Positions 6,465 to 33,050 of a stretch of DNA of 34,450 bases are shown piece by piece; position 1 is the first letter of the stretch; each line of letters begins with the position of its first letter. The translations under genes and the position numbers were made by a program. The DNA is from Myxococcota bacterium. Its GTDB lineage: Bacteria > Myxococcota_A > UBA9160 > UBA4427. The stretch is taken from contig JANQSB010000443.1 in NCBI GenBank assembly GCA_028284295.1, positions 1-34,450 on the forward strand, in the 5' to 3' direction. The notes beneath the pieces were generated by a model. The model was given only the letters and a program-made list of their open reading frames with translations. It searched no databases and was not told the DNA's origin.

Positions 6465-8192
6465 GTGAAGCGCACCGAAGTCGTTCGTCTGCCGGCGAGC
6501 CCCGTGCCGAGCGACTTCCTGGACGACGCCGACGGAATCGTCGAAGCCGTCGAGACACTGGTGCGGCGCCATCCGGACTTCGAGTGCCTGACCCTCCTCG
6601 ACCGCCAGCGCAACGAGACACGGCTCTCGCTCTCTGCATTCTGGAAGCGCGCCAAGCAGGTGCAGGCGTGCCTGGAAGCGAACGGGGTGACGCCGGGCGA
6701 CGCGGTGGTTCTCGTCCTTCCGACGGGCTTCGAGCTGCTGGCGGCCTACTTCGGTGCGATGTCCGCCGGGGCCGTCCCGGCACTCGCTGCGGTGCCCTCG
6801 AACCGGATCTCCGATCCGTCGGTCTACCGACGCACCCTGGGCGCCATCCTCGAGAACGCGGAAGCGCGAGTCCTGTACTGCGACGAGGCCGTGGCCGCGC
6901 TGCTTGGCGGTTCGGGGCGGGAGCTCGCGCCGAACGCGCTCGTCCTGCGCCCCGAGGACGTGGCCGGGGGCGACGCGAGCCCCGTCCGCGTCGCGACGCG
7001 ACCCGATGATCTCGCCAGCATCCAGTACTCGTCGGGGACGACGGGGACGCCCAAGGGGGTCCAGCTCAGCCACCGCGCCATCCTCGTCTACCTGCGAGCG
7101 CTCCGCGACGGCCTGGAACTGCGGCCGGACGACGTCCATGTGAACTGGGCGCCCCTGTACCACGACATGGGCTTGTTCGGCGCCTTCCTGCTCCCGCTCC
7201 TGTGCGGCTGCCCCTCGGTGCTGATCCCGACCATGGACTTCCTGCGCGACCCCGGGCTGTGGCTGTGGGCGCTGCACCGATACCGGGGCACGGTGTCCTG
7301 GGCCCCGAACTTCGCCTACTCGCTGTGCGCCAAGCGGATCCGGGACGACGCCCTGGAGGGTCTCGACCTGTCGAGCTGGCGCCACGCCATCAGTGCGTCG
7401 GAGCCGCTGCTCGCACACACCGTCGAGGCCTTCCGGGATCGCTTCGCTCGCTACGGGCTGAGGCGTGAGGCGTTGGGGGGGGCCTGGGGACTCGCCGAGG
7501 TCGTCATGGTCGGGACGGTGCAGCCTGCCAGCTGCGGACCGACCCTCGAGACGGTCGACCGGGACCGGCTCGTCCGGGAGGGGATCGCCGCGCCGGTCTC
7601 GGACGCCGGGATGCGGATGGTCTCGACCGGTCGCTGCCTGCCCGGCTTCGCGGTCGAGGTGCGGAACGACCAGGGGGAAGCCCTGCCGGACCGTCACGTC
7701 GGCCAGCTGTGGCTGCGCAGCGAGACCCTCTTTTCGGGCTACCGCGGCGATCCCGAACGATCGGCCGGAATCGTGCGCGACGGCTGGATCGACACGGGCG
7801 ACCGGGGCTATCTCGTGGGCGAGGACGTCTTCTTCGTGTCCCGCGACAAGGACCTGGTGATCATCGGAGGCGAGAACTACGCACCCCACGACATCGAGGT
7901 GGTGATCGACCGGGTTCCGGGCGTGCGCGAGGGTTGCGGAGTGGCCTTCGGCGTCGTGAACGAGGAGCGCGGCACGGAGGATCTGGCCTGCGTCGTGGAG
8001 ACGCGGCTCGAAGGCGCCGACGAGCTGGCCGCGCTGGAAGAGGCGATCCGCCGGGAAGTCACGGCCACGTTGGGTCTGGGCATCCGTCATCTGAAGCTGG
8101 TGCCGCCTGGCGGGATCGAGAAGACCACCAGCGGCAAGCTCTCCCGCAGCGGGACCCACGCGCGCTACGCGGACGAGCTGGCGGAAGGCTGA
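6465..8192 (+). CDS. Fatty acyl-AMP ligase (FAAL-type AMP-binding enzyme)
   Basis: IQYSSGTTGTPKGVQLSH, NWAPLYHDMGLFG, APNFAYSLC, GWIDTGDRGYL, KDLVIIGGENYAPHDIE; GTG start. Confidence 0.92.
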   Translation: MKRTEVVRLPASPVPSDFLDDADGIVEAVETLVRRHPDFECLTLLDRQRNETRLSLSAFWKRAKQVQACLEANGVTPGDAVVLVLPTGFELLAAYFGAMSAGAVPALAAVPSNRISDPSVYRRTLGAILENAEARVLYCDEAVAALLGGSGRELAPNALVLRPEDVAGGDASPVRVATRPDDLASIQYSSGTTGTPKGVQLSHRAILVYLRALRDGLELRPDDVHVNWAPLYHDMGLFGAFLLPLLCGCPSVLIPTMDFLRDPGLWLWALHRYRGTVSWAPNFAYSLCAKRIRDDALEGLDLSSWRHAISASEPLLAHTVEAFRDRFARYGLRREALGGAWGLAEVVMVGTVQPASCGPTLETVDRDRLVREGIAAPVSDAGMRMVSTGRCLPGFAVEVRNDQGEALPDRHVGQLWLRSETLFSGYRGDPERSAGIVRDGWIDTGDRGYLVGEDVFFVSRDKDLVIIGGENYAPHDIEVVIDRVPGVREGCGVAFGVVNEERGTEDLACVVETRLEGADELAALEEAIRREVTATLGLGIRHLKLVPPGGIEKTTSGKLSRSGTHARYADELAEG

Positions 8193-10645
8193 CGCCGGCC
8201 GAAGGCCAGGGAGAGCAGCGCGGGGGACACGACGAGGTCCGCGAGCAGGGCCGCGGCGGCGCCGAACGAAGCGAGGAGCCCGAAGCGGACGATGCCCGCC
8301 ATCTGTCCGAAGACGTAGACCCCGAAGCAGCAGACGAGGGTCAGGGTGGTCACGAGCAGGGCACGGCCGGTGGTGGCGACGGTGCGTGAGAGCGCCACCC
8401 GAAACTCCGCGTCCGGGTCGTCGCGCAGGTATCGATCGAACTTGTGCATCAGGTGGATGGTGTCGTCGACCGCGAGGCCGATCACCACGCTGCCCACGAG
8501 CAGGGTCGAGATGTTGAGGGAGATGTCGAGCCAGCCCATCAGGGCGAGGGTGAAGAGGACGGGAAGCAGGTTCGGGATCATGCTGAGCAGTCCGATGCGC
8601 ACGCTTCCGAGCATCAGCACCATGAGTGGCGTGATGATCAGCAGGGCCAGCGCATAGGACCTCGCCATGCTGGTGAGCACGACCTCGAAGGCGCGGCTCC
8701 CCAGCACGGTCGCTCCCGTGATGTCGAAGTCGAGCTCCGTCCCGAGGATGTCGGTCAGGTCCTCGCGCAGGCGTTCCAGGTAGGGGCCGTAGTAGAAGCC
8801 GTCCGTCAGTGGGACCCGCAGGGTCAGGCGAGCGATTCGAAGCTGGCTGTCGCTCACCTGGAGGAGATCGTCGGAACCGCTGTTCTCGAAGAGCAGCAGC
8901 TCCTGCGCGATCAGAGCCCGCTCGTCGGGTAGTGGCTCGCGGGAGGCCGCGTCGGCGTGCAGTGCGGCGTGGATCTCGCGGACGATGTCCACCAGGGAGA
9001 TCGCGCTGCCCGCCCGGATCGGTCCCACCTCGAGCTGGAGGGCGTGCCGGGCCGCCCTGTCGATCCGGTGCAGGAGCTCCGGTTCGTAGAGCCCGTTCTC
9101 GCGTCCGGTGTCGATGACGATCTCGACGCTCGAGACGCCATCCAGGGCCTCGTCCATCCGCAGGACGGCGAGGCGCACGGGATCCTCCGGGAGCAGCCAG
9201 TCGAAGGGGTCGTTGGCGAAGCGGAGCTTCGAGGCACCCGTGGCGGCGACGACGACAAGAAGCCCGGTCGCCAGGAGGACCCGGGCCGGGTGTCGGGCCA
9301 CGGCGTCGACGAAACCCAGCATCGACCGGTCGAGTGCGCTGCCGGGCCCGGAGGGCGAGGCGCCCCCGGCGTCCGGCCCCCGCGCTGACCGCACGCGGAT
9401 CGGAACCACGGCGAGCAAGGCGGGAAGGAGCGTGAGGGTATAGAAGAGGGTCACGGCGACCCCGATGGGCGCGATCATGCCGAGTCGGGCCACGGGCGCG
9501 ATCTCCGCGGCCAGGAAGGAGAGCAGCCCCCCCGCCGTCGTGAGGCTGGTGAGGACGATGGCGAGACCCGAGTGGCCGAGGGCGAACGCGATCGCATCCT
9601 CGCGGGTCCCACCCCGATCGTGGGCCTGGAAGAAGACGGCCAGGACGTGGACGGAGTCGCAGACCGCGACGACGATGATGAAGGTCGGGAGGATCTGGGT
9701 CGGAATGCTGAACGGGATGCCGAGCCCGCCCATCGCGCCGAAGGTCGAGGCCATGGAGAGGACGATCACCAGGGCAGGCAGCAGCGCTGCGGACAGGCGT
9801 CGGAAGAGCAGCCATAGCACCACCATGCTGATCAGCTGGGCGAGGGCGCCGAAGACGACGGTGTCGACCCGGGAGATCTCGGTGGCGCGGTACCCGAGCA
9901 CCGACTCCCCGGCCAGTCGGATCCGGAGATCTTCCGTCTCGTAGCGGGCCACCCGCTCGAGCAGGGCGGCCACCAGCTCGTCGGACTCCGCGCCCGTCAG
10001 GTACTCGTGCTTCTCTGCCGTCGCGGCTCTCGGCTCGTCGTCGAAGCCGGAGAGGTCCTCGTCGTCCTGGCCCCGGGTCGAGTAGGTCTGCGCGCGGATC
10101 AGCAGAGCGGTGTAGCGGCCGTCCTCGGAGACGAAGTTGTTGCGATAGACGGGGTTCGCGAGCACCTCCGCGCGCAGGGCCGGAAGTCCGTCCGGGCTCT
10201 CGGGCCAGCGCTCGAGGAGGTCCTCGACGATCAGCTCGTCGCCCTCGCCCCGGGTGCTGCGAGCGTTCACCAGGCTCTGCACCTCGGCCACGTAGGGAAG
10301 CTCGTTCTCGATCTCCCGGTGGAGGCGCTCGAGGGTATGCAGGAAGTCGAGGTCGAAGACCTCGGGCGGCTCGAGGCCGACGACGATCCGGTCGTCCAGT
10401 CCGAAGCGGTCGCGGAAGGCGTCGTAGCGCTCGCGGGTGTCGTCGCCGGGAAGGAGATAGCTGTCGTTCGAGAAGTCGGCTTCGATGGCGGGGATGCCGG
10501 CGAGCAGCACGGCGCTCACCACGCAGCATCCCAGGATCACCCACCCGGGCCGGCGCGAGACGCCGCGGCCGAGCCGCTCGAAGGCGGACTCGGCGCGGCC
10601 GTGGAGAGAAGCGACGAGCCTGCCGCGACCCCCCCGACCCGCCAT
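8165..10645 (-). CDS. MMPL/RND-superfamily transporter
   Basis: Two repeated five-TM blocks and two large periplasmic loops; SD-like gaggaggg before ATG at 10645. Confidence 0.9.
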   Translation of the reverse strand: MAGRGGRGRLVASLHGRAESAFERLGRGVSRRPGWVILGCCVVSAVLLAGIPAIEADFSNDSYLLPGDDTRERYDAFRDRFGLDDRIVVGLEPPEVFDLDFLHTLERLHREIENELPYVAEVQSLVNARSTRGEGDELIVEDLLERWPESPDGLPALRAEVLANPVYRNNFVSEDGRYTALLIRAQTYSTRGQDDEDLSGFDDEPRAATAEKHEYLTGAESDELVAALLERVARYETEDLRIRLAGESVLGYRATEISRVDTVVFGALAQLISMVVLWLLFRRLSAALLPALVIVLSMASTFGAMGGLGIPFSIPTQILPTFIIVVAVCDSVHVLAVFFQAHDRGGTREDAIAFALGHSGLAIVLTSLTTAGGLLSFLAAEIAPVARLGMIAPIGVAVTLFYTLTLLPALLAVVPIRVRSARGPDAGGASPSGPGSALDRSMLGFVDAVARHPARVLLATGLLVVVAATGASKLRFANDPFDWLLPEDPVRLAVLRMDEALDGVSSVEIVIDTGRENGLYEPELLHRIDRAARHALQLEVGPIRAGSAISLVDIVREIHAALHADAASREPLPDERALIAQELLLFENSGSDDLLQVSDSQLRIARLTLRVPLTDGFYYGPYLERLREDLTDILGTELDFDITGATVLGSRAFEVVLTSMARSYALALLIITPLMVLMLGSVRIGLLSMIPNLLPVLFTLALMGWLDISLNISTLLVGSVVIGLAVDDTIHLMHKFDRYLRDDPDAEFRVALSRTVATTGRALLVTTLTLVCCFGVYVFGQMAGIVRFGLLASFGAAAALLADLVVSPALLSLAFGRRQPSASSSA

Positions 10646-10704
10646 GTGCCCTCCTCGTCTCTCGAGCGCGTGCGCGGAAGCGAGCCCGTACCGGGCCGGA
10701 TCCC

Positions 10705-11352
10705 CTAGTCGGGGCGTACCCCGGACATCACCATGCACTTCCACAGGAAGGGCATCCCGCCCGCCCCGCGCCAGTCGATCTCGGCGAAGCCGGCGCGGGT
10801 GAGCAGCTGAGACAGGGTGTCGACCGAGAAGAACTTGATGTGGCCGAGCTGCCGGAGGGTGTGATGGTGATGGTCCCAGCGATTGCTCGCCGCGATGGCG
10901 ACGTTCTTCAGCCACCCGTGGTAGGGCGTGGAGCAGATCAGCGTTCCGCCCGGCCTCAGACCCGCGTAGCAGGTCGCCGCCCAGTCGGCGGGCTGGAAGA
11001 GGTGCTCGACCACCTCGGTGCTCACCACCAGGTCGAAGGGCTCTTCGCCGAGTGTCTCGAGAAGCTTCGTGTCGACCTCGAGGTTCTCGAAGCGTCCGTC
11101 CGGATGGTCGCTACGCGCCTGCTCGATGCGCTTCGCCGACGCGTCGACTCCGACCGTGCTGTGCCCGCGCTCGAGCATGCGCCCGAGCCAGTAGCCGTTG
11201 CCGCAGCCGATATCGAGGATGCGGAGCGGTCCGTCGGCCTGTGGCATGAGTGCGTCGATGGCCGCTTCCAGATAGGCGAACACCCCGGGTCGGCCCGAGA
11301 AGACGCGGCCGTATTCGGGGACGCGGATACTCTGACTGGCTTCCTCGCTCAC
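10705..11352 (-). CDS. Class I SAM-dependent methyltransferase
   Basis: RILDIGCGNGYWLGRML motif I; FDLVVSTEVVEHLFQP; GTG start. Confidence 0.88.
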   Translation of the reverse strand: MSEEASQSIRVPEYGRVFSGRPGVFAYLEAAIDALMPQADGPLRILDIGCGNGYWLGRMLERGHSTVGVDASAKRIEQARSDHPDGRFENLEVDTKLLETLGEEPFDLVVSTEVVEHLFQPADWAATCYAGLRPGGTLICSTPYHGWLKNVAIAASNRWDHHHHTLRQLGHIKFFSVDTLSQLLTRAGFAEIDWRGAGGMPFLWKCMVMSGVRPD

Positions 11353-11368
11353 GGCCCTCTCTTCTTTC

Positions 11369-11398
11369 TTCCCACGCGCTTCCTTCCCACGCGCTTCC
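11369..11398. repeat. Two exact tandem copies of a 15-bp unit (TTCCCACGCGCTTCC)
   Basis: 11369-11383 and 11384-11398 identical, followed by a partial third copy (tcacgcgct). Confidence 0.9.
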
Positions 11399-11464
11399 TC
11401 ACGCGCTCGTCTCGCGCGCCCCGGGCTCGGCAGGATAGCCGAGTCCGGGAAGGGGCGGCCGGGG

Positions 11465-11470
11465 TATAAT
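11465..11470 (+). promoter_or_regulatory. Consensus -10 element TATAAT just upstream of the ATG at 11482
   Basis: Perfect TATAAT in a very GC-rich region; no good -35 hexamer seen. Confidence 0.5.
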
Positions 11471-11481
11471 GCGCGCTCGCG

Positions 11482-12894
11482 ATGAGCCAGCCCGCACCGG
11501 ATCGAAGCCCGCTCGCCCAGCTGCTCGTGGGGATCTTCGATGCACTCGAAGGAGACGGCATCCGGTACTGCGTCCTCCGCGGATACGCAGATCTCCCGCA
11601 GGCGACGCGCAACGACGTCGATCTCGCGATCGATCCCGCGGCACTCGATCGGGTCCACGAGCACGTCGCGAGAGTGGCGCGTGATGCCGGCTGGCTGTGG
11701 GCGGGTCGCGATGATCAGAGCGGCGTGTCCCGGGTGAAGCTCTTCCACCCGGAGCATCCCGGTGGCATGCTGCCACTCGACCTCTGCGTGGAGCACAGCG
11801 TCTGGGGGATGCGCTATGCGGACCCCGAGTTCGTCCTGGACACGGAGCTTCGCCACGAGGGCATCCGGGTCGCACGGCCCGGCTGCGAGGCAGCCGTCAG
11901 TCTCCTGAAGGGGCTGCTGCGACACGGCACGGTGAAGGCGAGAGCCAGCCACCGCGACAGGCTCCAGACCTGCACGCGCGAGGATCCGCAGTCGTTCGCC
12001 GCCTGCGCGGCGCCGCTCGTGGGCGAGGCGTTGTGCGGAGAGCTCCTGGATGCCTGCCAGCGGGCCGATTGGGAGGCCGCGATCGCCCGTGCTCCCGCCC
12101 TGAGACGCGCCCTCGCGCGCCGCTCCGGACCCTTGCGGGTCTTGTCGAAGGCTCTCCGAGCCGCCCTGCGCACCCGGATGGCGCGCTTCTCGCGTCGCGG
12201 GGGGCAGGAGTTCCGAGGCGGCCTCTTCATCTGCCTGCTCGGCCCGGATGGCTCGGGCAAGACCACCCTCTCCCGTGCGCTCGAAGCCCGGATCGGCGGG
12301 CTCTTCGCCGAGACCGAGCAGTTCCACTCCGTGTCCGGGGTCTTCCCGCGGCTGCGCGGGCTCAAGAGGATCTTCTACGGGCTGCAGGGGCGAGAGGTTC
12401 CCGAGTCTCCCCTCAAGGGTGTCGCCATGCCGGGGGTGGTGGCGAAGCCGAGCCCGGCCTGGCGCGCGACGATCTACATCCTCTACTACGGCGTGGAGTA
12501 CATGCTCTACCGCTTCACCGTGGGAAGCAAGGTCCGGCGCAATCACCTGGTGATCTTCGATCGCTACTTCTACGACTACTACCTGATGCGCGTCCACATG
12601 AATGCGCCGCGCTGGCTGCTCGACCTCTTCTCCCGCTGGATCGCACAGCCCGACGTCCTCTTCGTGATGCTCGCGGACCCGGAAGCGATCTATCGGCGCA
12701 AGCCCGAGCTGACGCCGGAGGAGATCGAACGACAGCAGACCATCCTGAAGGGCCTGCAGCTCCCGCGGTCGGCGCAGATCGATACCTCGATCTCCGTGGA
12801 GCGGACCGTCGACGAGGCGCTGGATGTGATCGTCCCGCTCCTGGGGGGTCCAGTGGTGCGCTCGGAGCCGGGAACGGGCTCGTCCGCGTCGTGA
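11482..12894 (+). CDS. Fusion of an N-terminal nucleotidyltransferase-like domain and a C-terminal thymidylate-kinase-like P-loop domain
   Basis: NDVDLAIDP nucleotidyltransferase-like segment; Walker A GPDGSGKTT; FDRYFYDYY thymidylate-kinase-like motif. Confidence 0.8.
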   Translation: MSQPAPDRSPLAQLLVGIFDALEGDGIRYCVLRGYADLPQATRNDVDLAIDPAALDRVHEHVARVARDAGWLWAGRDDQSGVSRVKLFHPEHPGGMLPLDLCVEHSVWGMRYADPEFVLDTELRHEGIRVARPGCEAAVSLLKGLLRHGTVKARASHRDRLQTCTREDPQSFAACAAPLVGEALCGELLDACQRADWEAAIARAPALRRALARRSGPLRVLSKALRAALRTRMARFSRRGGQEFRGGLFICLLGPDGSGKTTLSRALEARIGGLFAETEQFHSVSGVFPRLRGLKRIFYGLQGREVPESPLKGVAMPGVVAKPSPAWRATIYILYYGVEYMLYRFTVGSKVRRNHLVIFDRYFYDYYLMRVHMNAPRWLLDLFSRWIAQPDVLFVMLADPEAIYRRKPELTPEEIERQQTILKGLQLPRSAQIDTSISVERTVDEALDVIVPLLGGPVVRSEPGTGSSAS

Positions 12895-13769
12895 ATCCGA
12901 GCGGCCTGCGGGAGTTCCTCGGCTCCGACTACGAGGTCAAGCCCCTCAAGTCGCGGGGCCTGCTCCTGCGCAACGCCCTCAAGCCCTGGCTGATCCGGCA
13001 GCCGCCGCGGGGCATGGCCTACCTCATCGAGGCGGGCGACGGGCGCCGCTTCAAGCTGGTGCGGTTTCCGCGGCCGGCCCGGGAGCGCTGCGCGGCGATC
13101 GCGGAGCGACTTCGCGTCCTGGCGGATCATCCGGCCGTGCCCGCGCTGGTGTGGAGCGACCGCGCCCACCTGCTCTGCGAGTGGATCGAGGGCTACGAGC
13201 CGAGCGTCGACGACGAGGGCTTCGCTCGGCGCCTGGGCGCGGCCTTCGCTGCGCTCTACCGATTCGGATACGAGGAGCAGAGCCGGGAGACGGTGCTCGA
13301 GCCCTTCCTGGGCTTCGCGCGCGAGCTCGCTGCAGCCGGAGGCCTCGAAGCGGCTCTCGCGAGCCGCTTCGAGTCACGACTGCTCGAGAGCCTGCCGTCG
13401 CGGATTCCGACCTCGATCCTGTGCAGCGACCAGAACGTGGCCAACTTCCGTGTTCGCGACGACGGCCACATGTACATGATCGACCCGGGCGCGTTCCAGT
13501 CCCGACAGCCGGTCGACCTCTTCCTGGTGGGCGACGGACTCTACGACGAGATCCGCAAGGACGCCTTCCACGAGGAGTACGGCCGCGCGGGGGGCATCGA
13601 GTTTCCCTTCGCCCACCTCGACGCCCTGGGTCTCATGCACGGCGTGCGCTACGCGGCCCTGCAGGTTCGTCTGCTCCAGCGGACCTCCTTCCTCGAAAGG
13701 CGCCGCCGACGAAGCCTCACGCGGCGGATCGAAGGCATCCTGGAGAGCCTGCGGCACCGGCTCGCCTGA
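12891..13769 (+). CDS. Atypical protein/sugar-kinase-like protein (LPS-kinase-like fold suspected)
   Basis: ILCSDQNVANF and MYMIDPGAFQ resemble a HxDxxxxN...DFG kinase arrangement; GTGA overlap with the upstream stop. Confidence 0.6.
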   Translation: MNPSGLREFLGSDYEVKPLKSRGLLLRNALKPWLIRQPPRGMAYLIEAGDGRRFKLVRFPRPARERCAAIAERLRVLADHPAVPALVWSDRAHLLCEWIEGYEPSVDDEGFARRLGAAFAALYRFGYEEQSRETVLEPFLGFARELAAAGGLEAALASRFESRLLESLPSRIPTSILCSDQNVANFRVRDDGHMYMIDPGAFQSRQPVDLFLVGDGLYDEIRKDAFHEEYGRAGGIEFPFAHLDALGLMHGVRYAALQVRLLQRTSFLERRRRRSLTRRIEGILESLRHRLA

Positions 13770-13786
13770 GCGGGCCTCCGGGCGGG

Positions 13787-15289
13787 CTACCAGCGACAGG
13801 CACCGTGGTGCTTCAACGCGATGGGTCTCGTGAGCAGGTAGTTGCGCTCGAGAAAGCCCGCCGCCAGGGCGGGATCCCGCTCCGCATTCGGCACCCGGTG
13901 CTGCACCCCCTGGCGCGAGAAGACCAGGTGCAGCCCTTCCTCGCCGGCTTCGGCCCGGCGTGTGACCTCTCTCCGCAGGGCGATCCAGGGTTGGGCGAGT
14001 ACGGGGGGACGAGCGGCGCGCATCACGTCCCGGCCCTGCCGGGGAGGATTCGCGAAGCCGCGCAGCCGCGGGTCGTTGCCTTCGAGGAAGTGGATGGGGT
14101 CGTTCAGGTTGTCGGAGATCTGGAGCCAGGCGGGCAGCAGGTAGTGGTTCGACTGTCCGTTCCCGGTGTCGAGGTTGGAGAACATCGCGAAGGACTGGAC
14201 GGCCTTGATGCCCAGGTGCGGCTGTGCGCCCTGGGCGAGGACGAAGGCCGGCAGCAGCCACAGGGGCCAGGCCGGGCGGGCGCGTCCGGGCCGCCAGGCG
14301 GGGAGAAGAGGCCTGCTCCGTGAGGGCCATCCCACTGCGCTTGCATAGGCGATTGCGATCACGACGAGCAGGCCGAAGAGCGCCGCGTGGTAGGTGTTCT
14401 GGCCCAGGATGCGGCGGAGATCCGGGCTGCCTGTCGACTCGTGGAAGACCTCGAGCGCGAGTGCGGTGACGACGCCCAGTGCGGCGCGAACCCACCGCGG
14501 CTCCACCACCCGGGCGATCGTTGCGACGCGCGCCGGAAGGTCGCGCCCGAGACGGGTCGCGACGCGCCTGGCACGTGCGACGCCGCACTCGAGCTCCTCT
14601 TCCGGCGTGAAGAGGAAGAGGAATCCGTACACGAGGAACTGGAAGGAGGGAAAGCCGATCCCCAGCGCCGCGTGGAACGCGAAGGCCAGGAGGACGCCCG
14701 CCTTTCTCGTGCGAGAGAAGAGCAGCAGGAACGGGATCGAGGCCTCGGCCAGCAGGGTCCCCGGGGCCACCCACGAGTCGAGTGCGGGCGGCAGCGGAAG
14801 GATCGGGAGGATCCTGCGAGTCGTCTCCAGCAGGTGGACTCCACAGCTCGAGGCGGGATCGAGGAAGTGCGGGTTCAGCTTGTGGAAGAAGACCCAGAAG
14901 TAGAAGACCAGGAAGGCGGCCCGCAGCAGGGTCGCCAGCTCCCGGTGCAGCGCACCGATCTCGACGCGGAGCCGCCGCTCCGCGATCGCCCGGGCGGCGT
15001 AGACCGCGAGGAAGCCGATCCAGAGGGAGGCGTACAAGCTCTCGTGGTTGCTGAGGTGCCGGTCGAGCACCAGCATGAGCGGTCCTGCGACGCCCATGAC
15101 GAGAAGCGCGGAGCGCCCCCCGCTCGCGAAGAGGAAGGCGCCGAAGGCGAAGGGGGCGAGGTAGCGAGCCCAGGCGGCCGGGTCTCCGTCGCCGGGCGAG
15201 AAGCTCCTGTTGTTGGTCACGACGGAGAGCGCGAACAGGGAGACGAAGGCGACCATCTGCTCCCGGGGCCCGGTCGGTGCGCTTCCCAT
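13787..15289 (-). CDS. HTTM-domain (vitamin K-dependent gamma-carboxylase-like) membrane protein
   Basis: Multi-TM protein with FFHKLNPHFLDP and a GIGFPSFQFLVYGFLFLF segment. Confidence 0.7.
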   Translation of the reverse strand: MGSAPTGPREQMVAFVSLFALSVVTNNRSFSPGDGDPAAWARYLAPFAFGAFLFASGGRSALLVMGVAGPLMLVLDRHLSNHESLYASLWIGFLAVYAARAIAERRLRVEIGALHRELATLLRAAFLVFYFWVFFHKLNPHFLDPASSCGVHLLETTRRILPILPLPPALDSWVAPGTLLAEASIPFLLLFSRTRKAGVLLAFAFHAALGIGFPSFQFLVYGFLFLFTPEEELECGVARARRVATRLGRDLPARVATIARVVEPRWVRAALGVVTALALEVFHESTGSPDLRRILGQNTYHAALFGLLVVIAIAYASAVGWPSRSRPLLPAWRPGRARPAWPLWLLPAFVLAQGAQPHLGIKAVQSFAMFSNLDTGNGQSNHYLLPAWLQISDNLNDPIHFLEGNDPRLRGFANPPRQGRDVMRAARPPVLAQPWIALRREVTRRAEAGEEGLHLVFSRQGVQHRVPNAERDPALAAGFLERNYLLTRPIALKHHGACRW

Positions 15290-15390
15290 GTCGGGGATCC
15301 TAACGCCGCGAGTCGTCGGCGGGGGCCGCCGAAGCGGGCCGCGAAGAACCCGCTCGATCCGGGCTGCTGGCACCCTGCTAGCCTACGAAG

Positions 15391-15651
15391 GTGCCGGCCC
15401 GCCTGGAAGCTCTCGAGTCCGTCGTCCGGGGCTTCCTGTCGAGCGAGCTCGAGATCCCCGAAGGCGAGCTCACCGTGGACGCACCGCTGGTCTCGAGCGG
15501 GCGCGTGGACTCCGCGGGGCTCGTCCAGCTGGCCGCTCTGCTCGAGGACGAGGCGGACGTCGTCATCCCGGACGCCGACGTGAACGCCGACCACTTCGAC
15601 AGCATCGCCTTGATCCTCGACTACGTGGCCGGCCGGATCGGGTCGCGTTGA
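15391..15651 (+). CDS. Acyl carrier protein
   Basis: 86-aa acidic protein with GRVDSAGLVQLAALLEDE (phosphopantetheine Ser in DSAG) and C-terminal NADHFDSIALILDYV. Confidence 0.85.
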   Translation: MPARLEALESVVRGFLSSELEIPEGELTVDAPLVSSGRVDSAGLVQLAALLEDEADVVIPDADVNADHFDSIALILDYVAGRIGSR

Positions 15652-15654
15652 GCT

Positions 15655-17097
15655 TCAGCGACTTCCGCCTGCCAGCATCCGCAGGTAGCCCGGGAACTGG
15701 TCGATGGCCGGCCCCTGGTAGTTGAGCAGCGTGACCGTGAAGGAGGCCAGGACCAGGGTGAGTGCCGTTGCGACCAGGCGGCGGGGTCCCCAGCCCGTCG
15801 CGGGAGGCCGGCCCCGCCAGCGCTGGTAGTGCACGTGACCCACGACGGCCGCGGCGTTCAGTGCCGCCCACAGGGTGACCGGCGCTGCGTTGCGGAGGCT
15901 CCAGTCCGAGGTGAGGAAGGGCGTGCCGAGCGCGTGCCACACGGCGCTCACCGCGAATGCGGCCAGGATGTTCAGCGATTGGTGGCGCCGATTCGCACCC
16001 AGCGGTGCGTAGACGTGCACGATCAGCCAGTTGGTGAGCGACCCGCGCCAGGAGCGCCAGAGCTCCGAGGGATTGCGAAGCGAGAGCAGGCGCAGGAAGT
16101 TGGTCCGCAGCCGGATGCCGTAGGCGAGTGCACAGGCCTCGATCAAGGCCCAGTAGCCCATCACCATCAGCGCGACGCGGACGTATAGGAGAAGCGAGTT
16201 GCCCCAGAGGGCCAGCGACCCCGCGCTCGCGAGCTGCGCCTCGACGGAGATCGGGATGCGTTCGGCGAGCCAGAGCTGCGCGGTGCCTCTCACCATCATG
16301 CGGCCGGCGCGCGGAAGGTCGAAGTGGGTCCGGGCGCGGAGATTCCTCCTCGAGAACTCCTGGTAGACCTCGGGGCCCCCGACCGGCCCGTTGGCACCGG
16401 GATAGAAGCTCAGGAAGCACAGGTAGTCGGGCGGCGAGCCGATCTCCTGCTTGCAGGCCGTCACCACGAAGCTGATGTGCCGCAGGAAGACGAGGAAGAT
16501 CAGCCCGTGCGTCTCCAGCGCGTCGGTGGGCGAGCCCGCGCGAAGGGTCAACGCGTAGGCGTAGGCGGCGCTCATCACCGCGCCCTGCAGGAGCAAGGCG
16601 TTGCGTGGGCGGCGTCCGCCGGGCAGGTGGAGGAGCGCATAGCCGCCCGCACAGGCGCCGAAGACCGCGACCACCGCGGGGGTCCCCGCGTATCCCGTGA
16701 GGATCAGGAGGCTGAGGGTCGCGAGTGCGAGCTTGCGCCACGAAGGCCCGAGCTGCGCGAAGCCGAGGCCCGCGAAGAGACAGAACGCAGCGTGGTCGAA
16801 GCGCCGGAAGAGCAGCCAGATCGCGTCGCTCGGGACCGACAGCAGCCACCCCAGCAGTGCTGCGGCGATCACGAGCGAGCCGAGGCCGATCCCGAGTCGG
16901 GCGCCCGCCCCTGCCCGACGGTGAAGCGCGGCGACGCCCGAAGCCAGGGGCAGCACGAGGGCGGCGAAGAGGCCGACCTCGAAGACTCCCTCCATGGCGG
17001 CCTCGGCGAAGCGCGGCTCGACCGAGGCCGGTAGCAGGGATGTCAGGCCCTCGCGCGCCGGTGCCGACAGGCGCGCGAGGAGATCGCCCTCGTTCAT
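15655..17097 (-). CDS. MBOAT-family O-acyltransferase (DltB/AlgI-like)
   Basis: Multi-TM; ELWRSWRGSLTNWLIVHVYAPLGANRRHQ...FAVSAVWHALG matches the MBOAT core. Confidence 0.85.
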   Translation of the reverse strand: MNEGDLLARLSAPAREGLTSLLPASVEPRFAEAAMEGVFEVGLFAALVLPLASGVAALHRRAGAGARLGIGLGSLVIAAALLGWLLSVPSDAIWLLFRRFDHAAFCLFAGLGFAQLGPSWRKLALATLSLLILTGYAGTPAVVAVFGACAGGYALLHLPGGRRPRNALLLQGAVMSAAYAYALTLRAGSPTDALETHGLIFLVFLRHISFVVTACKQEIGSPPDYLCFLSFYPGANGPVGGPEVYQEFSRRNLRARTHFDLPRAGRMMVRGTAQLWLAERIPISVEAQLASAGSLALWGNSLLLYVRVALMVMGYWALIEACALAYGIRLRTNFLRLLSLRNPSELWRSWRGSLTNWLIVHVYAPLGANRRHQSLNILAAFAVSAVWHALGTPFLTSDWSLRNAAPVTLWAALNAAAVVGHVHYQRWRGRPPATGWGPRRLVATALTLVLASFTVTLLNYQGPAIDQFPGYLRMLAGGSR

Positions 17098-17149: not shown

Positions 17150-17728
17150 TCAGCTCCAGGAGAAGTGGCCGATCGCGCGTCGACCCTCCCGATCGATCTC
17201 GAAGCTCAACTCGGGGTCCTTGGGCTTCTCGAGGTCGAAGACGCCGAGACAGATCCCGTGCCAGCAGTGCAGGTAGCCGGGGGACTCGAAGGCCTGGGGA
17301 GCGATGTCGTCGAGGTGCAGCTCGCAGTGGTTGTCGTCGAGGGGGACGAAGCGCGGCGCGCAGAAGTCGCGGTAGGCGAGGGTCCAGCCCTTGGGGACCA
17401 TCTTGATCAGCTTGCCGGGTCGGGCGCCGAAGATCCGCAGGGCTCCGGACACGAAGTTCTTGAGCAGCGGCTTCTCGATGAGCTGCGAGATGCTCTGGCG
17501 CCAGCACTGGATCGCGTCGTCGCGGCCGAGGACCTCGAGGGTGGCATCCATCAGCCAGTGGTCGTGCTCGAACTCGAGCCACGAGATCCCCGGGGTCTCG
17601 TCGATGGCCGTGAGCGAGGCCTCGGGGATGCGCTCGCGGATGCGACGCAGGGAGCCCGGTCGATAGACATCCGTGAAGGCGACGTTGTCGCGCGCGGCGC
17701 TGGCGCGTGCGGCGGGGCTGCGACTCAT
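17150..17728 (-). CDS. Uncharacterised soluble protein
   Basis: 192-aa ORF with a normal protein composition and no recognisable motif. Confidence 0.65.
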   Translation of the reverse strand: MSRSPAARASAARDNVAFTDVYRPGSLRRIRERIPEASLTAIDETPGISWLEFEHDHWLMDATLEVLGRDDAIQCWRQSISQLIEKPLLKNFVSGALRIFGARPGKLIKMVPKGWTLAYRDFCAPRFVPLDDNHCELHLDDIAPQAFESPGYLHCWHGICLGVFDLEKPKDPELSFEIDREGRRAIGHFSWS

Positions 17729-17849
17729 GACGACCTCCGTCGGGCGAGTCCGACTCATCGGCCGAAAGGGCGGACGCCCTGAGCGAGCGCCCTTCCGGAA
17801 GCCCTATGCTGCGGGCTCGATTGGAGCGGGAACGGGGGAGGCGGGGCGA

Positions 17850-19337
17850 GTGGTAGCGCGAGTCTCGATCGGTGGCTGCCAGCGGCCGTCCCGGCCCGGA
17901 CAGCCGCTCCCGGTCCTCCTGGGCGCCCTCCTCCTGTTAGGCTGCACGGGAGCCGATCCCAGCCCGCCCAACGTGCTGCTCGTCGTGGTGGACACCCTGA
18001 GGGCGGACCACGTCGGCGCCTACGGCTACCCGCGGCCCACGAGCCCGCGACTCGATGCGCTGGCCGACGAGGGCGTCCTGTTCCGCCGCTGCGCGGCGGT
18101 GGCCAACTGGACCCTGCCCAGCCACGCCTCGATGTTGACCGGGCTGCTCCCGCCCGCTCATGGCGCCCACCGTGTCGCTCCCGGTGCGGCGAGCGTGGAG
18201 CACGAGGAGCCCGCGGGCGCGATCGCCCGGGATGCGCCGAGCCTGGCGGAGGCGCTCCAGGGAGCGGGCTACCGGACCGCAGGCATCGTGGCGAACTGGT
18301 GGTGGCTGGGAGCCGCCTATGGCTTCGACCGCGGCTTCGACCACTACGATCATCGCGGTGGCCGGCCGCCCTGGGTCTACCGGAGAGCGCGGCCGATCAG
18401 CGACGCGGCCATCGCATGGCTCGAAGAGGGACTCGGAGGCGAGGGTCGTCGGCCCTTCTTCCTGCTGCTCAACTACATGGACCCGCACATCCCCTATCTG
18501 CCACCGAAGCGCTTCCTCGAGCGCTTCGGTGCCGGAGCGACGGGTGACGAGCTCGAGAAGTCCTGGATCTTCTTTCACGAGACCCAGTCGGCGGTGACCC
18601 GCGAGGGCCGGCCCCCCGCGCCCGCGCTCCTGGAGCGCCTCGTCGATCGCTACGACGCGGAGATCGCGTTCGTGGATGCCGAGCTCGGTCGCGTCTTCGA
18701 CTGGCTTCGCGAGACCGGGCAGTGGCAGGACACGCTCGTCATCGTCACCTCCGACCACGGCGAGGCCTTCGGCGAGAACGGCGTCGCGGGCCACGGCGTC
18801 CTGCTCCACGAAGCGGAGCTCGCCGTGCCCCTGATCGTGAAGCTGCCTTCCGCAGCGTCTGGGTCGATCGATGCGGCTGGCAGGGTGGTGGAGCAGCGCG
18901 TGCAGCACGTCGACCTGCTGCCCACGGTGTTGGAGGTCGCTCGTGTTCCGGACTCGGGTGGTCACCACGGTCGCTCGCTGCTGCGGGAACTGGCTGGCGA
19001 GGTCGCGGGCGAGCGCGACGCCCTGGCCGTCGCGTACGAACGCGAGCGCATCGCTCGCCTGCGGCCCTCGCTCGCGGGGGAACGCTGGGCGCTCTACCGC
19101 GACGACCTCAAGCTCGTCGCGCACGCCGACGGCCGTCGCGAGCTGTTCGACCTGGCCGCCGATCCGGGGGAGACGCGCGACCTGTCGGCCGAGAGGCCGC
19201 ACGAGCTGCGCTCCCTCTCGGACTCGCTCGCCGAGAAGCAGCGGACACTGGAGCCGCTCGACCGTGGGGAGCCGGTGACGAGGGCTCCGGATGCCGACAC
19301 GCGCGAGAAGCTGCGCGCGCTGGGGTACTCGGACTGA
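17850..19337 (+). CDS. Sulfatase-superfamily lipoprotein (alkaline-phosphatase fold)
   Basis: Lipobox LLLGCTGA; NVLLVVVDTLRADHVG; WTLPSHASMLTG; TSDHGEAFGENG; GTG start with SD-like gggagg. Confidence 0.88.
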   Translation: MVARVSIGGCQRPSRPGQPLPVLLGALLLLGCTGADPSPPNVLLVVVDTLRADHVGAYGYPRPTSPRLDALADEGVLFRRCAAVANWTLPSHASMLTGLLPPAHGAHRVAPGAASVEHEEPAGAIARDAPSLAEALQGAGYRTAGIVANWWWLGAAYGFDRGFDHYDHRGGRPPWVYRRARPISDAAIAWLEEGLGGEGRRPFFLLLNYMDPHIPYLPPKRFLERFGAGATGDELEKSWIFFHETQSAVTREGRPPAPALLERLVDRYDAEIAFVDAELGRVFDWLRETGQWQDTLVIVTSDHGEAFGENGVAGHGVLLHEAELAVPLIVKLPSAASGSIDAAGRVVEQRVQHVDLLPTVLEVARVPDSGGHHGRSLLRELAGEVAGERDALAVAYERERIARLRPSLAGERWALYRDDLKLVAHADGRRELFDLAADPGETRDLSAERPHELRSLSDSLAEKQRTLEPLDRGEPVTRAPDADTREKLRALGYSD

Positions 19338-28384: not shown

Positions 28385-29740
28385 CTACTCGGTGGCGCCG
28401 GGGCTCCGATAGGCGTCGCACTCGTTCGGAATCGGGCTTCCGTCGCCCAGGGAGCGCGCCAGCACGAAGAGGTCGGCGACCGTGCAGTCCGTGGCTCCCC
28501 CATCCGAGGGGCCGATGACGTTGCAGCGACGCTCTTCGAAGCTCGTCTGCGGACTCGCGCCGACCACGAAGCGACGGGCCTCTTCCAGGTCGGCGGCCGT
28601 CACGCCACCGATCTCGTCGACGTTTCCGCACTGGCAGACGTCGCCGCCGGGGAAGACGTCGCTCTCTTCCTGGCCCGGGTTGAAGATGAAGATGCAGTTG
28701 TCGACGCCGTCGAGGTCGGCGTCCGAGTCCGTGTCGGGGTCGTTGGGGTTCGAGCCGATCCCGACCTCCTCGCTGTCGCTGAGGGTGTCCGAGTCCGTGT
28801 CGGCCGAACGGGGATCGGTGCCGGTGTCGTTCTCGTCGATGAAGACACCGCTGTCGGTCTCGACGTCGTTCGCGAGACCGTCCCCGTCGATGTCGGGGTC
28901 GCAGAGGTCTCCGAGGCCGTCCCCGTCCACGTTGCCCTGCCGGCCGTTCCCGACACCCGGGCACAGGTCCGAGCCCGGCTCCACGGCGTGGAGGGCGTTG
29001 CGACCGATGGCTCCCGCCCAGGCCAGGTCCATCGCGCTGCCGTCGATGGCGAGCTCGAAGCTCGGGCCCGTCGATTCGTACTCGAAGGCATCGGCCGGCT
29101 CGCCCAGGCTGCCGCCGAGCGATTCGGGCTGGTCGAGGGAGAGCAGCAGGTGCCCGCTCGAGAGCCGGTGCAGGGCGTCGACGTCCGACCCGGAAGACAG
29201 ACCCTCGCCGTCGCCGTCGAAGACGACCACGGCGGAGGGCGAGCTGGACCACTGGACGACGTCCTCGGGCCACACCGTCGTGCCCTCCAGCACCACGACC
29301 GTGTCGAAGGAGAGCAGCAGGTCCGACCCGCTCCGGCCGACGGCGTCGACGTTCACCCCGGCACCGAGGCCCCGCGCGGAGGCGTCGAAGACCACCACGT
29401 AGCTCTCCGCATCCAGGTCGTAGCTCACCACGTCGCCGGGCTCGACGAAGGTCCCGCCCAGGTCGGCGGGCTGATCGAGGGAGAAGAAGGCCAGGCCGTT
29501 CAGGTCGAGATGGAGGGCGTCCACGTCCACGCTCGCTGGCAGGGCTCCCAGCTCGACGGTGTTGGAGGCTCCGGGCGGGTCCTCGCTGACGGCCTGCTCG
29601 GGACCCACCAGCAGCGCTCCGCCACCGAGGGAGAGCAGCTGGTCGGCCGAGCTCGTCACGTCGGCCAGGGGGGTGGCCGCACCGGCCAGAGGCGCCGCGA
29701 AGAGCAGGCAGAGCCCGAGAGAAAGGGCCGCGGCGCGCAC
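28385..29740 (-). CDS. Secreted protein with three ~57-aa repeats and a thrombospondin type-3-like Ca-binding segment
   Basis: Signal peptide; repeated VDAL...LLLSLDQP..LGG..; DGDGLGDLCDPDIDGDGLANDVE...DTDSDTLSDSEE. Confidence 0.82.
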   Translation of the reverse strand: MRAAALSLGLCLLFAAPLAGAATPLADVTSSADQLLSLGGGALLVGPEQAVSEDPPGASNTVELGALPASVDVDALHLDLNGLAFFSLDQPADLGGTFVEPGDVVSYDLDAESYVVVFDASARGLGAGVNVDAVGRSGSDLLLSFDTVVVLEGTTVWPEDVVQWSSSPSAVVVFDGDGEGLSSGSDVDALHRLSSGHLLLSLDQPESLGGSLGEPADAFEYESTGPSFELAIDGSAMDLAWAGAIGRNALHAVEPGSDLCPGVGNGRQGNVDGDGLGDLCDPDIDGDGLANDVETDSGVFIDENDTGTDPRSADTDSDTLSDSEEVGIGSNPNDPDTDSDADLDGVDNCIFIFNPGQEESDVFPGGDVCQCGNVDEIGGVTAADLEEARRFVVGASPQTSFEERRCNVIGPSDGGATDCTVADLFVLARSLGDGSPIPNECDAYRSPGATE

Positions 29741-29741
29741 C

Positions 29742-30788
29742 CTACTCGACGACCTCGCAGGTCCCCGGCTCGCAGAAGTTGTCGAGCAGGTTCGTGAAGA
29801 AGTAGCCGGAGAGCGATCCGCGGAGGATGTCGCCGTCCCCGTCCTGGTCGTTGTAGCTGAAGCTGTTGAGGCCCACGCCCTGGTTGGTGCGAAGGGTCAG
29901 GATGCCGTCGTTGTCGTTGCTGAGGAGCAGATTTCCGTAGATGAGCGCGTGGTGGCTGCCCACCGAGATGCCGTTGAGCGTGTTGTCGAGAGAGACGTTG
30001 TAGCGGAAGATCATGCTCTCGCCGCCGCCCAGCCCCGTGCCTCCGTTGTCGCCGGAGAGGTTGGAGACGATGGTGCTGTTGCCGCTGAGGGTGATCCCCC
30101 AGCCGCCGTTGCTCTTCGCGATGTTGTGCTGGGAGCTGGTCGCGTCCTTGCCGAAGATGCCGTGGCCGGTGTTCCGCCAGCTGATGTTGCCCGTATGGAC
30201 ATCGCCCTTCTGTCCGGAGGACAGTCCATTGCCGCCGTTGTGGTGGACGAGGTTGTCGAACATGGTGCCGAACTGGTTGACGATGACTCCCGCGCCGCCG
30301 TTGCGGGCGGCCCGGCAGCGGATCACCGTGGCCCGGTTGTCGAGCCGGATGCCGACACCTCCGTTGTCGACCGCGGTGACAGCCTCGACGTGCACGAGGT
30401 CGGCGGTGGGGGAGTCGATCCCGTCCCCTCCCATGCCCCGGATGATCCCGTTCCGGATCGAGTGGCCCAGCCCCGCGAGGATCTCGATGCCGTTGCCGTT
30501 TCCCGCGCTACCGGGCCCGACGATCGAGAAGCCGTTCAGGTCGATGAAGACGGCGTCGCTGCTGTTGACCGTGATGGCCGTGGTGTTCGGCGGGTCGGCC
30601 GCGCCCGTCACGTCGAGGTTGCTCGTGAGCCGGTAGGTGCCGGCCTGGGTGATGTCGAAGGGGAAGCCGCCCGACCCTTCGACCCGGGCCTGATTGACGA
30701 GCACCACGCCTTCCGCGCCGAGCGCGGGAGTGGCGAAGATCAGGAGCAGGCCGGACAGCAGGGCGAGTCGTGTGTGTCGCGTGTCCAT
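29742..30788 (-). CDS. Secreted right-handed beta-helix repeat protein
   Basis: Signal peptide; repeated short N/G-rich coils (GVGIRLDNRATVIRCRAARNGGAGVIV). Confidence 0.85.
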   Translation of the reverse strand: MDTRHTRLALLSGLLLIFATPALGAEGVVLVNQARVEGSGGFPFDITQAGTYRLTSNLDVTGAADPPNTTAITVNSSDAVFIDLNGFSIVGPGSAGNGNGIEILAGLGHSIRNGIIRGMGGDGIDSPTADLVHVEAVTAVDNGGVGIRLDNRATVIRCRAARNGGAGVIVNQFGTMFDNLVHHNGGNGLSSGQKGDVHTGNISWRNTGHGIFGKDATSSQHNIAKSNGGWGITLSGNSTIVSNLSGDNGGTGLGGGESMIFRYNVSLDNTLNGISVGSHHALIYGNLLLSNDNDGILTLRTNQGVGLNSFSYNDQDGDGDILRGSLSGYFFTNLLDNFCEPGTCEVVE

Positions 30789-30798
30789 CTCCTCTCCT

Positions 30799-31875
30799 TC
30801 AGCAGCTCGTGTTGCTGCCGCACACGTTGGATTCGAGGGTGTAGCCGTTCAGCGGATTGCTGCTGAACACGTTGAGGCCGTAAGGCTGCTGCACGGTCAG
30901 GTAGAGCGGGTAGCCGCTGTTGCCCCGGGCGACGTTCTCGAGGATCAGGACTCCGCGACTCGAGCCGTTCATGTGGTAGCCGTCCCCGTCGTTGTTGAGG
31001 GCGCTGTTGCCGTGGAGCAGGGTCCCGTTCTCGAACTCGAAGCCCATCGTGTTGCTCTCGTAGGCGGTGCTCGAGTCGACGAGCATTCCCTTCGAGGTGG
31101 ACACGAAGCCGCGGCCGTTCACCCAGGCGTTGGTGTTGTGGACCAGCATGTAGCCGCTGCCCTGGACGGCGGCGTCGCTCGCGTAGCGGACACTGCTCGC
31201 GTCCACGAGCAGTGCCGCATCGGAGCCCGAGAACGCGCCGTAGATGCCGTCGCCGCCAGTCGTCACGATGCGCGCGTTCGAGACCCGGCACGGGCCCCAG
31301 CAGGTGACTCCGTTCGCGGCCAGGTCCTGCATGGCCACGTCGTGAACCCGGGAGCCGTCACCCACGTAGATCCCGGTGCCGCCTCCGTGGCGCACCGTGA
31401 CCGACTCGACGGTAGCCCCGTCGCCGAGGATCACGCCGTGGCGCCCCATACCGGAGATGGACCCGTTTCGGACGCTGACGCCTTCCTGGTTCAGTCCGTA
31501 GATGGCGTCCCCGTTGGCCGTGTAGGTGCAGTTCACGCTACCCGCCTCGCTGGACGTGCTGGTCGTGGTGCAGTTGTTGGTCCCCTTGATGGTGTGGCCG
31601 CCCATGTCGAGGGTGACCCAGTCCGCGGTGATCTCGATCGCGGTCGTGAACTGGGGGTTCAGCTCGCCCGTCAGGTCGAGATCGCTGACGAGCACGTAGC
31701 TTCCCGAGCTCGCGATGGTGATCGGGAAGCCGGGCGCGTCGCCGGCGAGGCGCCCGGTCGTCGCCGCGGTCTGACTGATCTGGATGCGACCGTCCGTCGC
31801 CCGGGCGGGCTCGGGAGTGACGAGGCCCGCCGTGAGTGTCGCCACCAGGAAGAGGACGCTGTGGGAGAGCTTCAT
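30799..31875 (-). CDS. Secreted right-handed beta-helix repeat protein, paralogous to its downstream neighbour
   Basis: Signal peptide; SGSYVLVSDLDLTGELNPQFTTAIEI resembles the neighbour's AGTYRLTSNLDVTGAADPPNTTAITV. Confidence 0.85.
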   Translation of the reverse strand: MKLSHSVLFLVATLTAGLVTPEPARATDGRIQISQTAATTGRLAGDAPGFPITIASSGSYVLVSDLDLTGELNPQFTTAIEITADWVTLDMGGHTIKGTNNCTTTSTSSEAGSVNCTYTANGDAIYGLNQEGVSVRNGSISGMGRHGVILGDGATVESVTVRHGGGTGIYVGDGSRVHDVAMQDLAANGVTCWGPCRVSNARIVTTGGDGIYGAFSGSDAALLVDASSVRYASDAAVQGSGYMLVHNTNAWVNGRGFVSTSKGMLVDSSTAYESNTMGFEFENGTLLHGNSALNNDGDGYHMNGSSRGVLILENVARGNSGYPLYLTVQQPYGLNVFSSNPLNGYTLESNVCGSNTSC

Positions 31876-32282
31876 CGGGGCTCCGGTGCAGGGATCGGGT
31901 TTCGAGGGACCTTGGCCTAACAGATTGTGGGCGCGGATGACGCCGGGCGCCATGAACCACTTAACAACAGGCGACCCTCGACTTCCCGCTCGCCGGGTGG
32001 CCGATTCCGGCCATCCCGACGCCCCGGCGCCGTCGGGCGGGGCGGAGTGCCCCAAGACCGCACCGACCCGGGGTCCCGAAGCGGGACGGCCGACCGAACA
32101 GCCTTCTCGTCCGGACGCTTGCGTTCCCCGAAAAGCCTGCAAATGCAGGGCCTTGGCGGCCCGCTTGCGGGTTCCGACGCGAGGTATGGAATCGGTAAGG
32201 GCGCGGTAACGCGCGCCACCCGCCTTCTGGCGATGTTCCCGTCGTCCTTCGGCACACCTCAAACCTTCAGGGAGCAATCGCA

Positions 32283-33050
32283 ATGAAGCGCGCGGCCGTC
32301 CTCGTCTACGGATTCGCCTGTTACGGCATCTTCTTCGCCACCTTCCTCTACTCCATCGGGTTCATCGGAAACCTCGCCGTCCCCAAGTCGGTCGACTCGG
32401 GCCCGGCGGTCGACTGGAGCCTCGCCGTCGCCGTGAACCTGGCGCTGCTCGGAGTCTTCGCCCTCCAGCACAGCGTCATGGCGCGTCCCTTCTTCAAGCG
32501 CTGGATCACACGCAGCATCCCGCAGCCCGCCGAGCGGCCGACCTACGTGCTGGCGAGCAGCGCGGCGCTGGCGCTGCTGTACTGGGGCTGGGAGCCGCTG
32601 CCCGAGCTGGTCTTCTCCGTCCAGAGCGAGATGCTCCGGAGCGCGTTGACCGCGCTCTTCTTCGGCGGCGTGGGCCTGGTCCTCTACTCGACCTTCCTGA
32701 TCGACCACTTCGACCTGTTCGGCCTGCGCCAGGTGATCCTCTACTTCCAGGACCGGCCCTACACGGAGAAGAACTTCGTCACGCCCTCGCTCTACCGCTA
32801 CATCCGCCACCCGCTCTACGTCGGCTGGTTCGTCACCTTCTGGGCCACCCCGGACATGAGCGTCGGGCATCTGCTGCTCGCTCTCGGCACGACCGCGTAC
32901 ATCCTGGTGGCCATCGTCTTCGAGGAGCGGGATCTGGGCGAGCTGCTCGGAAGCGACTACCGCGAGTATCGCGAGCGCACGCCGAAGTTCGTACCCCGCG
33001 TCCGCAATCGCAGCAGCGAGCAGCCGGTGACTCTGGAGAGCGCCGTCTGA
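32283..33050 (+). CDS. NnrU/isoprenylcysteine-methyltransferase-like membrane protein, possible methanethiol S-methyltransferase (MddA-like)
   Basis: FFATFLYSIGFIGNLAVPKSVDSGP N-terminus; YRYIRHPLYVGW and EERDLGELLGSDYREYRERTPKFVP. Confidence 0.7.
   Translation: MKRAAVLVYGFACYGIFFATFLYSIGFIGNLAVPKSVDSGPAVDWSLAVAVNLALLGVFALQHSVMARPFFKRWITRSIPQPAERPTYVLASSAALALLYWGWEPLPELVFSVQSEMLRSALTALFFGGVGLVLYSTFLIDHFDLFGLRQVILYFQDRPYTEKNFVTPSLYRYIRHPLYVGWFVTFWATPDMSVGHLLLALGTTAYILVAIVFEERDLGELLGSDYREYRERTPKFVPRVRNRSSEQPVTLESAV

Follow-up and report, generated by a model that had tools for sequence, protein, structure and literature searches.

The window analysed here is the whole of a 34,450-nucleotide contig (C87) from the draft genome of an uncultured deltaproteobacterium (Myxococcota; G000; 718 contigs, 5.85 Mb, ~90% complete), and it encodes a fatty acyl-AMP ligase (FAAL; 575 aa, positions 6465-8192, plus strand), a stand-alone acyl carrier protein (ACP; 86 aa, 15391-15651, plus strand) and a strongly diverged membrane-bound O-acyltransferase (MBOAT; 480 aa, 15655-17097, minus strand). 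We consider it probable that the FAAL and ACP belong to a conserved set comprising FAAL, ACP, MBOAT, a microprotein (hereafter X) and an SGNH protein, which would act as a dlt-like relay of fatty acyl groups to an extracytoplasmic acceptor, and of which the window carries a scattered copy with a diverged MBOAT. A first-pass annotation had proposed a dispersed dlt-like set of FAAL, ACP, MBOAT and an MMPL transporter; its family assignments and coordinates for all four agreed with Pfam and NCBIfam, and the GC content at codon positions (GC3) was coding-like for these genes, as it was for a neighbouring HTTM-like open reading frame (ORF).

By its sequence, the ligase, which takes the position of DltA, is a FAAL rather than a CoA ligase. 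It matched the AMP-binding family PF00501 (E 3.6e-59), and FAAL models ranked top in NCBIfam (378 bits vs 171 for the general CoA-ligase subfamily PRK06187). Searched against the PDB, a FAAL family profile (built, like that of the ACP, from four sequences with the window row among them) found 3pbk as its best match at 350 bits; FAAL structures scored 209-350 bits, and the best CoA ligase 154. The other top structures were 7r7e-g, 3kxw, FAAL domains of synthases, FadD23, FadD32 and FadD28, and a FAAL from one of the Chloroflexota loci described below, used as query, returned the same structure ranking as the family profile. In the profile alignments, FAALs cross positions 331-388, the presumed region of the FAAL insertion, and those of the best CoA ligases break off or begin within it. 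The nearest relatives of the window FAAL were a FAAL of G060 (64% identity) and that of an operon in G007 (60%), the nearest relative compared and a member of the same genus as the window genome; both are MBOAT-adjacent.

The ACP (PP-binding PF00550, E 5e-8) retains the invariant D40-S41 of the phosphopantetheine site, with the Ser41 codon at about 15511-15513, and shares 47-48% identity with its module counterparts in G007 and G006. It is the sole ACP of its type in the genome (121 bits, against 30.5 for the runner-up). The ACP and MBOAT genes converge, their stop codons lying 3 bp apart, which makes a chance placement unlikely. Judged on sequence, then, the window FAAL and ACP are sound members of the conserved set. 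That FAAL, ACP and MBOAT are unrelated genes sharing a contig by chance we regard as very unlikely, and it is already disfavoured for FAAL and ACP. Alternating strands, unrelated neighbours and the unsupported place of the window MBOAT in the module clade (see below) would fit such an accident, but FAAL and ACP both have their nearest counterparts in linked loci, and of only two MBOAT genes in the 5.85 Mb draft one sits beside this ACP.

Co-occurrence in related genomes, proposed as a check of the set, bore it out: FAAL, ACP and MBOAT form a conserved neighbourhood, often a tight operon. The FAAL profile was run over the order (80 genomes) and over a sample of the phylum (379 genomes), and a further scan of named genomes brought in loci from Chloroflexota. 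In G007 (locus L064), FAAL, ACP and MBOAT (60%, 47% and 27% identical to those of the window, respectively) are contiguous on one strand, preceded by a YfhO-like membrane protein and a GT2 glycosyltransferase and followed by a methyltransferase. In G014 (L067) the order is ACP, FAAL, MBOAT, X and SGNH, with genes overlapping or nearly so, and in G006 an ACP-MBOAT pair is divergent from an SGNH gene. Adjacency was also found in G060 (two loci), G067, G333, G134, G266 and G215, with ACP and MBOAT convergent in G067 as they are in the window. Six Chloroflexota loci carry X, MBOAT, SGNH, ACP and FAAL, all on one strand. The earlier caution that the link might be coincidental thus lapses for FAAL and ACP, which adjoin MBOAT genes in relatives; for the window MBOAT, a place in the module's MBOAT clade is uncertain.

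The FAALs themselves also cluster by neighbourhood. In a tree of 51 rows picked from the collected loci (short search, SH-aLRT support only), which shows clustering rather than an unbiased frequency, a supported branch separated all 16 MBOAT-adjacent rows (the window's included) and 7 others from the remaining 28 FAALs, among which were fusions of ACP, FAAL and PlsC. MBOAT-adjacency labels required 7 changes on this tree vs 14.0 in shuffles, and none of 500 shuffles was as low. The ACP-FAAL-PlsC fusions, of ~950 aa, are seemingly widespread in Proteobacteria, Acidobacteria, Nitrospirota and Actinomycetota (L066 9188-13328, L072-L078 and many more), the architecture having been checked in L066 and the remaining cases assigned by length and tree position. 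An MFS/ATG22-like transporter directly follows the fusion in L066. Such fusions are possibly a phospholipid acylation system.

The dlt analogy extends beyond what was first proposed, as an SGNH protein and a DltX-like microprotein also belong to the set. At most module loci an SGNH/GDSL-like protein is encoded beside the MBOAT, often at weak Pfam scores; an alignment of ten of these proteins has an invariant G-x-S and an invariant His, and their profile matched GDSL/SGNH hydrolases in the PDB (E 5e-6 to 1e-3). The acyl-shuttle motif FxYxxF has been defined for DltX and for the C-termini of MBOATs (PMC12148441). Among module MBOATs, the short, DltB-type members are without it at the C-terminus, and 11 of the 12 loci bearing them encode a separate X, a single-helix ORF of ~34-47 codons with [FW]xYxxF at its C-terminal end (FDYGRF, FDYARF, FLYGRF, FIYEAF or FVYQGF, and WIYQGF in 6/6 Chloroflexota loci, where the X gene is directly upstream of the MBOAT). 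The twelfth such locus, that of G007, has an SGNH gene followed by X (FIYQEF) on the same contig, about 22 kb away. Each of the four long, AlgI-like MBOATs of the module has the motif at its own C-terminus (FIYFQF or FVYQQF), so that 15 of the 16 MBOAT-bearing module loci other than the window have a shuttle motif, and the sixteenth (G007) has it elsewhere on its contig. These counts are descriptive and not a pre-set test, given that the motif search followed inspection of the loci, first in a strict and then in a looser form that revealed the WIYQGF set, and the start codons of the small ORFs are only putative. In a background control, run after the motif was seen and combining [FW]xYxxF with a hydrophobic stretch, none of 18,825 ORFs qualified in 1.16 Mb of background loci. 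Two Chloroflexota loci (L129 4305-5240 and L150 7777-8721) encode a second weakly GDSL-like protein between SGNH and ACP. In one locus of G060 (L169 1573-8934, contig C728), an AlgI-like MBOAT itself ends in FIYFQF, and a separate microprotein with the ending FVYDGFD precedes an SGNH-like gene; in one search the FAAL of this locus was read with an in-frame TGA.

With X and SGNH included, the gene content is identical to dltA-B-C-D-X, and DltB was the best solved structure for the family MBOAT profile (8.5e-46, the window row being part of the profile), both of which would suit a genuine D-alanylation system. We nonetheless hold this to be extremely unlikely: the ligase best matches FAALs, DltA was absent from the 60 best PDB matches of the FAAL profile and from the matches listed for the Chloroflexota module FAAL, and none of seven X microproteins tested had a significant match in Pfam, the DltX model included.

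Sequence analysis shows the families, their motifs, a predicted fold and how the genes co-occur; the route for loading and relay, with its fatty-acyl substrate and acceptor, we infer from the families, following mechanisms published for Dlt and PatAB (PMC12148441) and the DltB-DltC geometry (PMC11035591). The FAAL would activate a fatty acid as acyl-AMP and load the acyl group onto the dedicated holo-ACP, which takes the place of DltC. On the cytoplasmic side of the membrane, a DltB/AlgI-type MBOAT would then accept the acyl group and hand it to the Tyr of FxYxxF, either on the separate X or on its own C-terminus, from which the SGNH protein would move it to an extracytoplasmic acceptor. This acceptor is most likely a glycan or glycolipid; the glycosyltransferase-type neighbours (GT2, YfhO, GT4 and PMT-like) in G007 and G067 point to a glycan.

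The same components could be arranged differently: FAAL and ACP might provide fatty acyl-ACP for the synthesis of a lipid or natural product, and the MBOAT might itself acylate a membrane lipid or small molecule instead of feeding a relay to a surface polymer. It is from natural-product pathways that FAALs are best known (PMC11837247), some MBOATs acylate lipids, and ACP-ligase pairs are reported to serve sphingolipid synthesis in other bacteria (PMC9386255). We nevertheless judge direct acylation unlikely, as the recurrent SGNH protein and FxYxxF shuttle are features of extracytoplasmic transfer, and the glycosyltransferase-type neighbours in G007 and G067 also count against it.

Known MBOAT/SGNH systems attach small groups (acetyl, D-alanyl) to surface polymers. 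The module looks like a variant of this MBOAT/SGNH acyl relay equipped with a fatty-acyl activator. With the Dlt pathway of teichoic acid D-alanylation (DltA-DltB-DltC-DltD-DltX) it shares a ligase, a carrier, a DltB-like MBOAT, an SGNH protein and an FxYxxF-type microprotein; it differs in that the ligase is a FAAL, X is not recognised by the Pfam DltX model, the SGNH protein is only distantly GDSL-like, and the module occurs in deltaproteobacteria and Chloroflexota. The O-acetyltransferases PatA/PatB, AlgI/AlgX-J and WssH/I likewise pair an MBOAT with an SGNH protein and use the Tyr shuttle motif, and the long module MBOATs, with their FIYFQF-type ends, are AlgI-like. These systems, however, take acetyl-CoA as donor and are said to be without carrier or DltX-like microprotein (PMC12148441), both of which the module has; the same 2025 study describes all MBOAT/SGNH pathways except Dlt as lacking the two (PMC12148441). 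Stand-alone FAAL-ACP pairs such as JamA-JamB resemble the module in that the FAAL adjoins its cognate ACP gene (PMC11837247), but the partners in the module are MBOAT, SGNH and X, and no polyketide synthase or nonribosomal peptide synthetase was recognised among the neighbours scanned. The ACP-FAAL-PlsC fusions have a related FAAL domain with an ACP domain of their own, but they are fused to a PlsC-type acyltransferase, lie on the opposite side of the FAAL tree and have no MBOAT. In the open-access literature searched, we found no paper joining FAAL with MBOAT; most subscription papers and all preprints lay outside the search, and an earlier description may exist.

Whether the module amounts to a second carrier-fed MBOAT/SGNH relay in deltaproteobacteria and Chloroflexota, in which a fatty acyl group passes from a FAAL-loaded ACP through acyl-Tyr on a DltX-like microprotein to a surface glycan, and in which the MBOAT of the window lineage has altered active-site chemistry, seems to us evenly balanced. 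If true, it would broaden the acyl-Tyr relay in both cargo (fatty acyl groups) and range (further phyla), contradict the view that carrier protein and DltX-like microprotein are exclusive to Dlt, provide a natural comparison of split and fused shuttles with one kind of acyl donor, and hint at acylated surface glycans not yet known.

The MBOAT of the window is the least regular member. Its PF03062 match (E 5e-12) is above the cut-off, its frame is intact across 480 codons, and it keeps the catalytic His388 within a VWHALG motif. The AlphaFold model (mean pLDDT 70) had only MBOATs among its best 22 PDB matches, PORCN, HHAT and DltB included. In the W-x-x-W-H motif, however, the residue equivalent to His289 of DltB, retained in the other sequences compared, is Arg351, and W-x-x-W-R occurred in this protein alone among the 48 MBOATs listed. 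The C-terminal FxYxxF was not found in it, no close relative turned up among the 379 genomes of the phylum, and a search of genome contigs with the protein as query returned no matches. Upstream of the MBOAT and on the same strand lies a gene for a 202-residue protein (17150-17758) that matched no Pfam or NCBIfam family.

Several observations weigh against placing the window genes in a working relay. The set is scattered over 10 kb and both strands, and FAALs of the MBOAT-adjacent clade were present in only 6 of the 80 genomes of the order, the window genome included. In G006 the FAAL is on a different contig from the ACP-MBOAT pair, both near contig ends, and five more Chloroflexota ACP-FAAL loci have no MBOAT in the available DNA, part of which is short. 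Neither SGNH nor X was found in the window or the rest of its draft genome by profile and same-genus queries, a weak negative in a genome of which ~10% is missing and may hold both. The window MBOAT deviates at 12 of 28 near-invariant positions, compared with 0-2 in the other 17 family sequences, sits on a tree branch of 5.4 changes per column with unsure placement, and scores 17-57 bits with every subgroup profile, when five compared members cross-score at about 124 or more. The branch length and the low scores to all subgroups leave its assignment to the DltB-type module clade unsupported, and beside the ACP it appears to be either a replaced, a rewired or a decaying partner.

The same features raise the possibility that a once-complete relay has decayed or been rewired in this genome, with SGNH and X lost, the MBOAT drifting or acting on a new acceptor, and FAAL and ACP serving something else. 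This is compatible with our explanation of the family as a whole and competes with it for the window copy only. The His-to-Arg exchange, the altered near-invariant sites, the missing SGNH and X and the scattered gene order all point that way; the unbroken MBOAT frame with its coding-like GC3, the predicted MBOAT fold with His388 in place and the tenth or so of the genome that the draft lacks point the other way. We regard decay or rewiring as a serious contender for the window copy, though a somewhat doubtful one, and continue to favour membership of FAAL and ACP in the conserved relay.

The remaining genes around the FAAL and ACP do not appear to belong to the set. The transporter gene that overlaps the end of the FAAL gene (8165-10645, minus strand; PF03176) had been likened to the mycobacterial MmpL exporters that work with FAALs, an analogy we ruled out since it encodes an RND transporter of HAE3 type (TIGR00921). 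No MMPL gene was found at the corresponding places of module loci. Between FAAL and ACP lie, on the plus strand, a gene for a nucleotidyltransferase-like and thymidylate-kinase-like protein (11482-12894; sub-threshold PF02223/TIGR00041) and, overlapping its stop codon, one for an APH-type kinase (12894-13769; PF01636, E 7e-10), neither of which turned up at the equivalent positions of the module loci searched. The next ORF (13787-15289, minus strand), divergent from the ACP, had been called an HTTM membrane protein; the ORF stands, and the family call is weak (PF05090, 20.6 bits vs a cut-off of 27.7). HTTM matches occurred in 21 of the 379 phylum genomes, the window's own included, and in the stretches read beyond the window none lay close to an ACP, MBOAT or FAAL gene. 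With neither MMPL nor HTTM conserved near module loci, their inclusion in the set was dropped. A sulfatase (17673-19337) was also rejected as a common component: the genomes of G007 and G067 hold many paralogues, and their best matches to it are not those at the module loci.

Two further features of the window were noted in passing. In the gene pair at 11482-13769, what looks by eye like a nucleotidyltransferase-like N-terminus is fused to the thymidylate-kinase-like P-loop domain and followed by the overlapping APH-type kinase; the two may form a small pair that phosphorylates a glycan. Farther along, at 28385-32283, three successive minus-strand genes encode proteins that look secreted, of which one has calcium-binding (TSP3-like) repeats and the others by eye resemble right-handed beta-helices.

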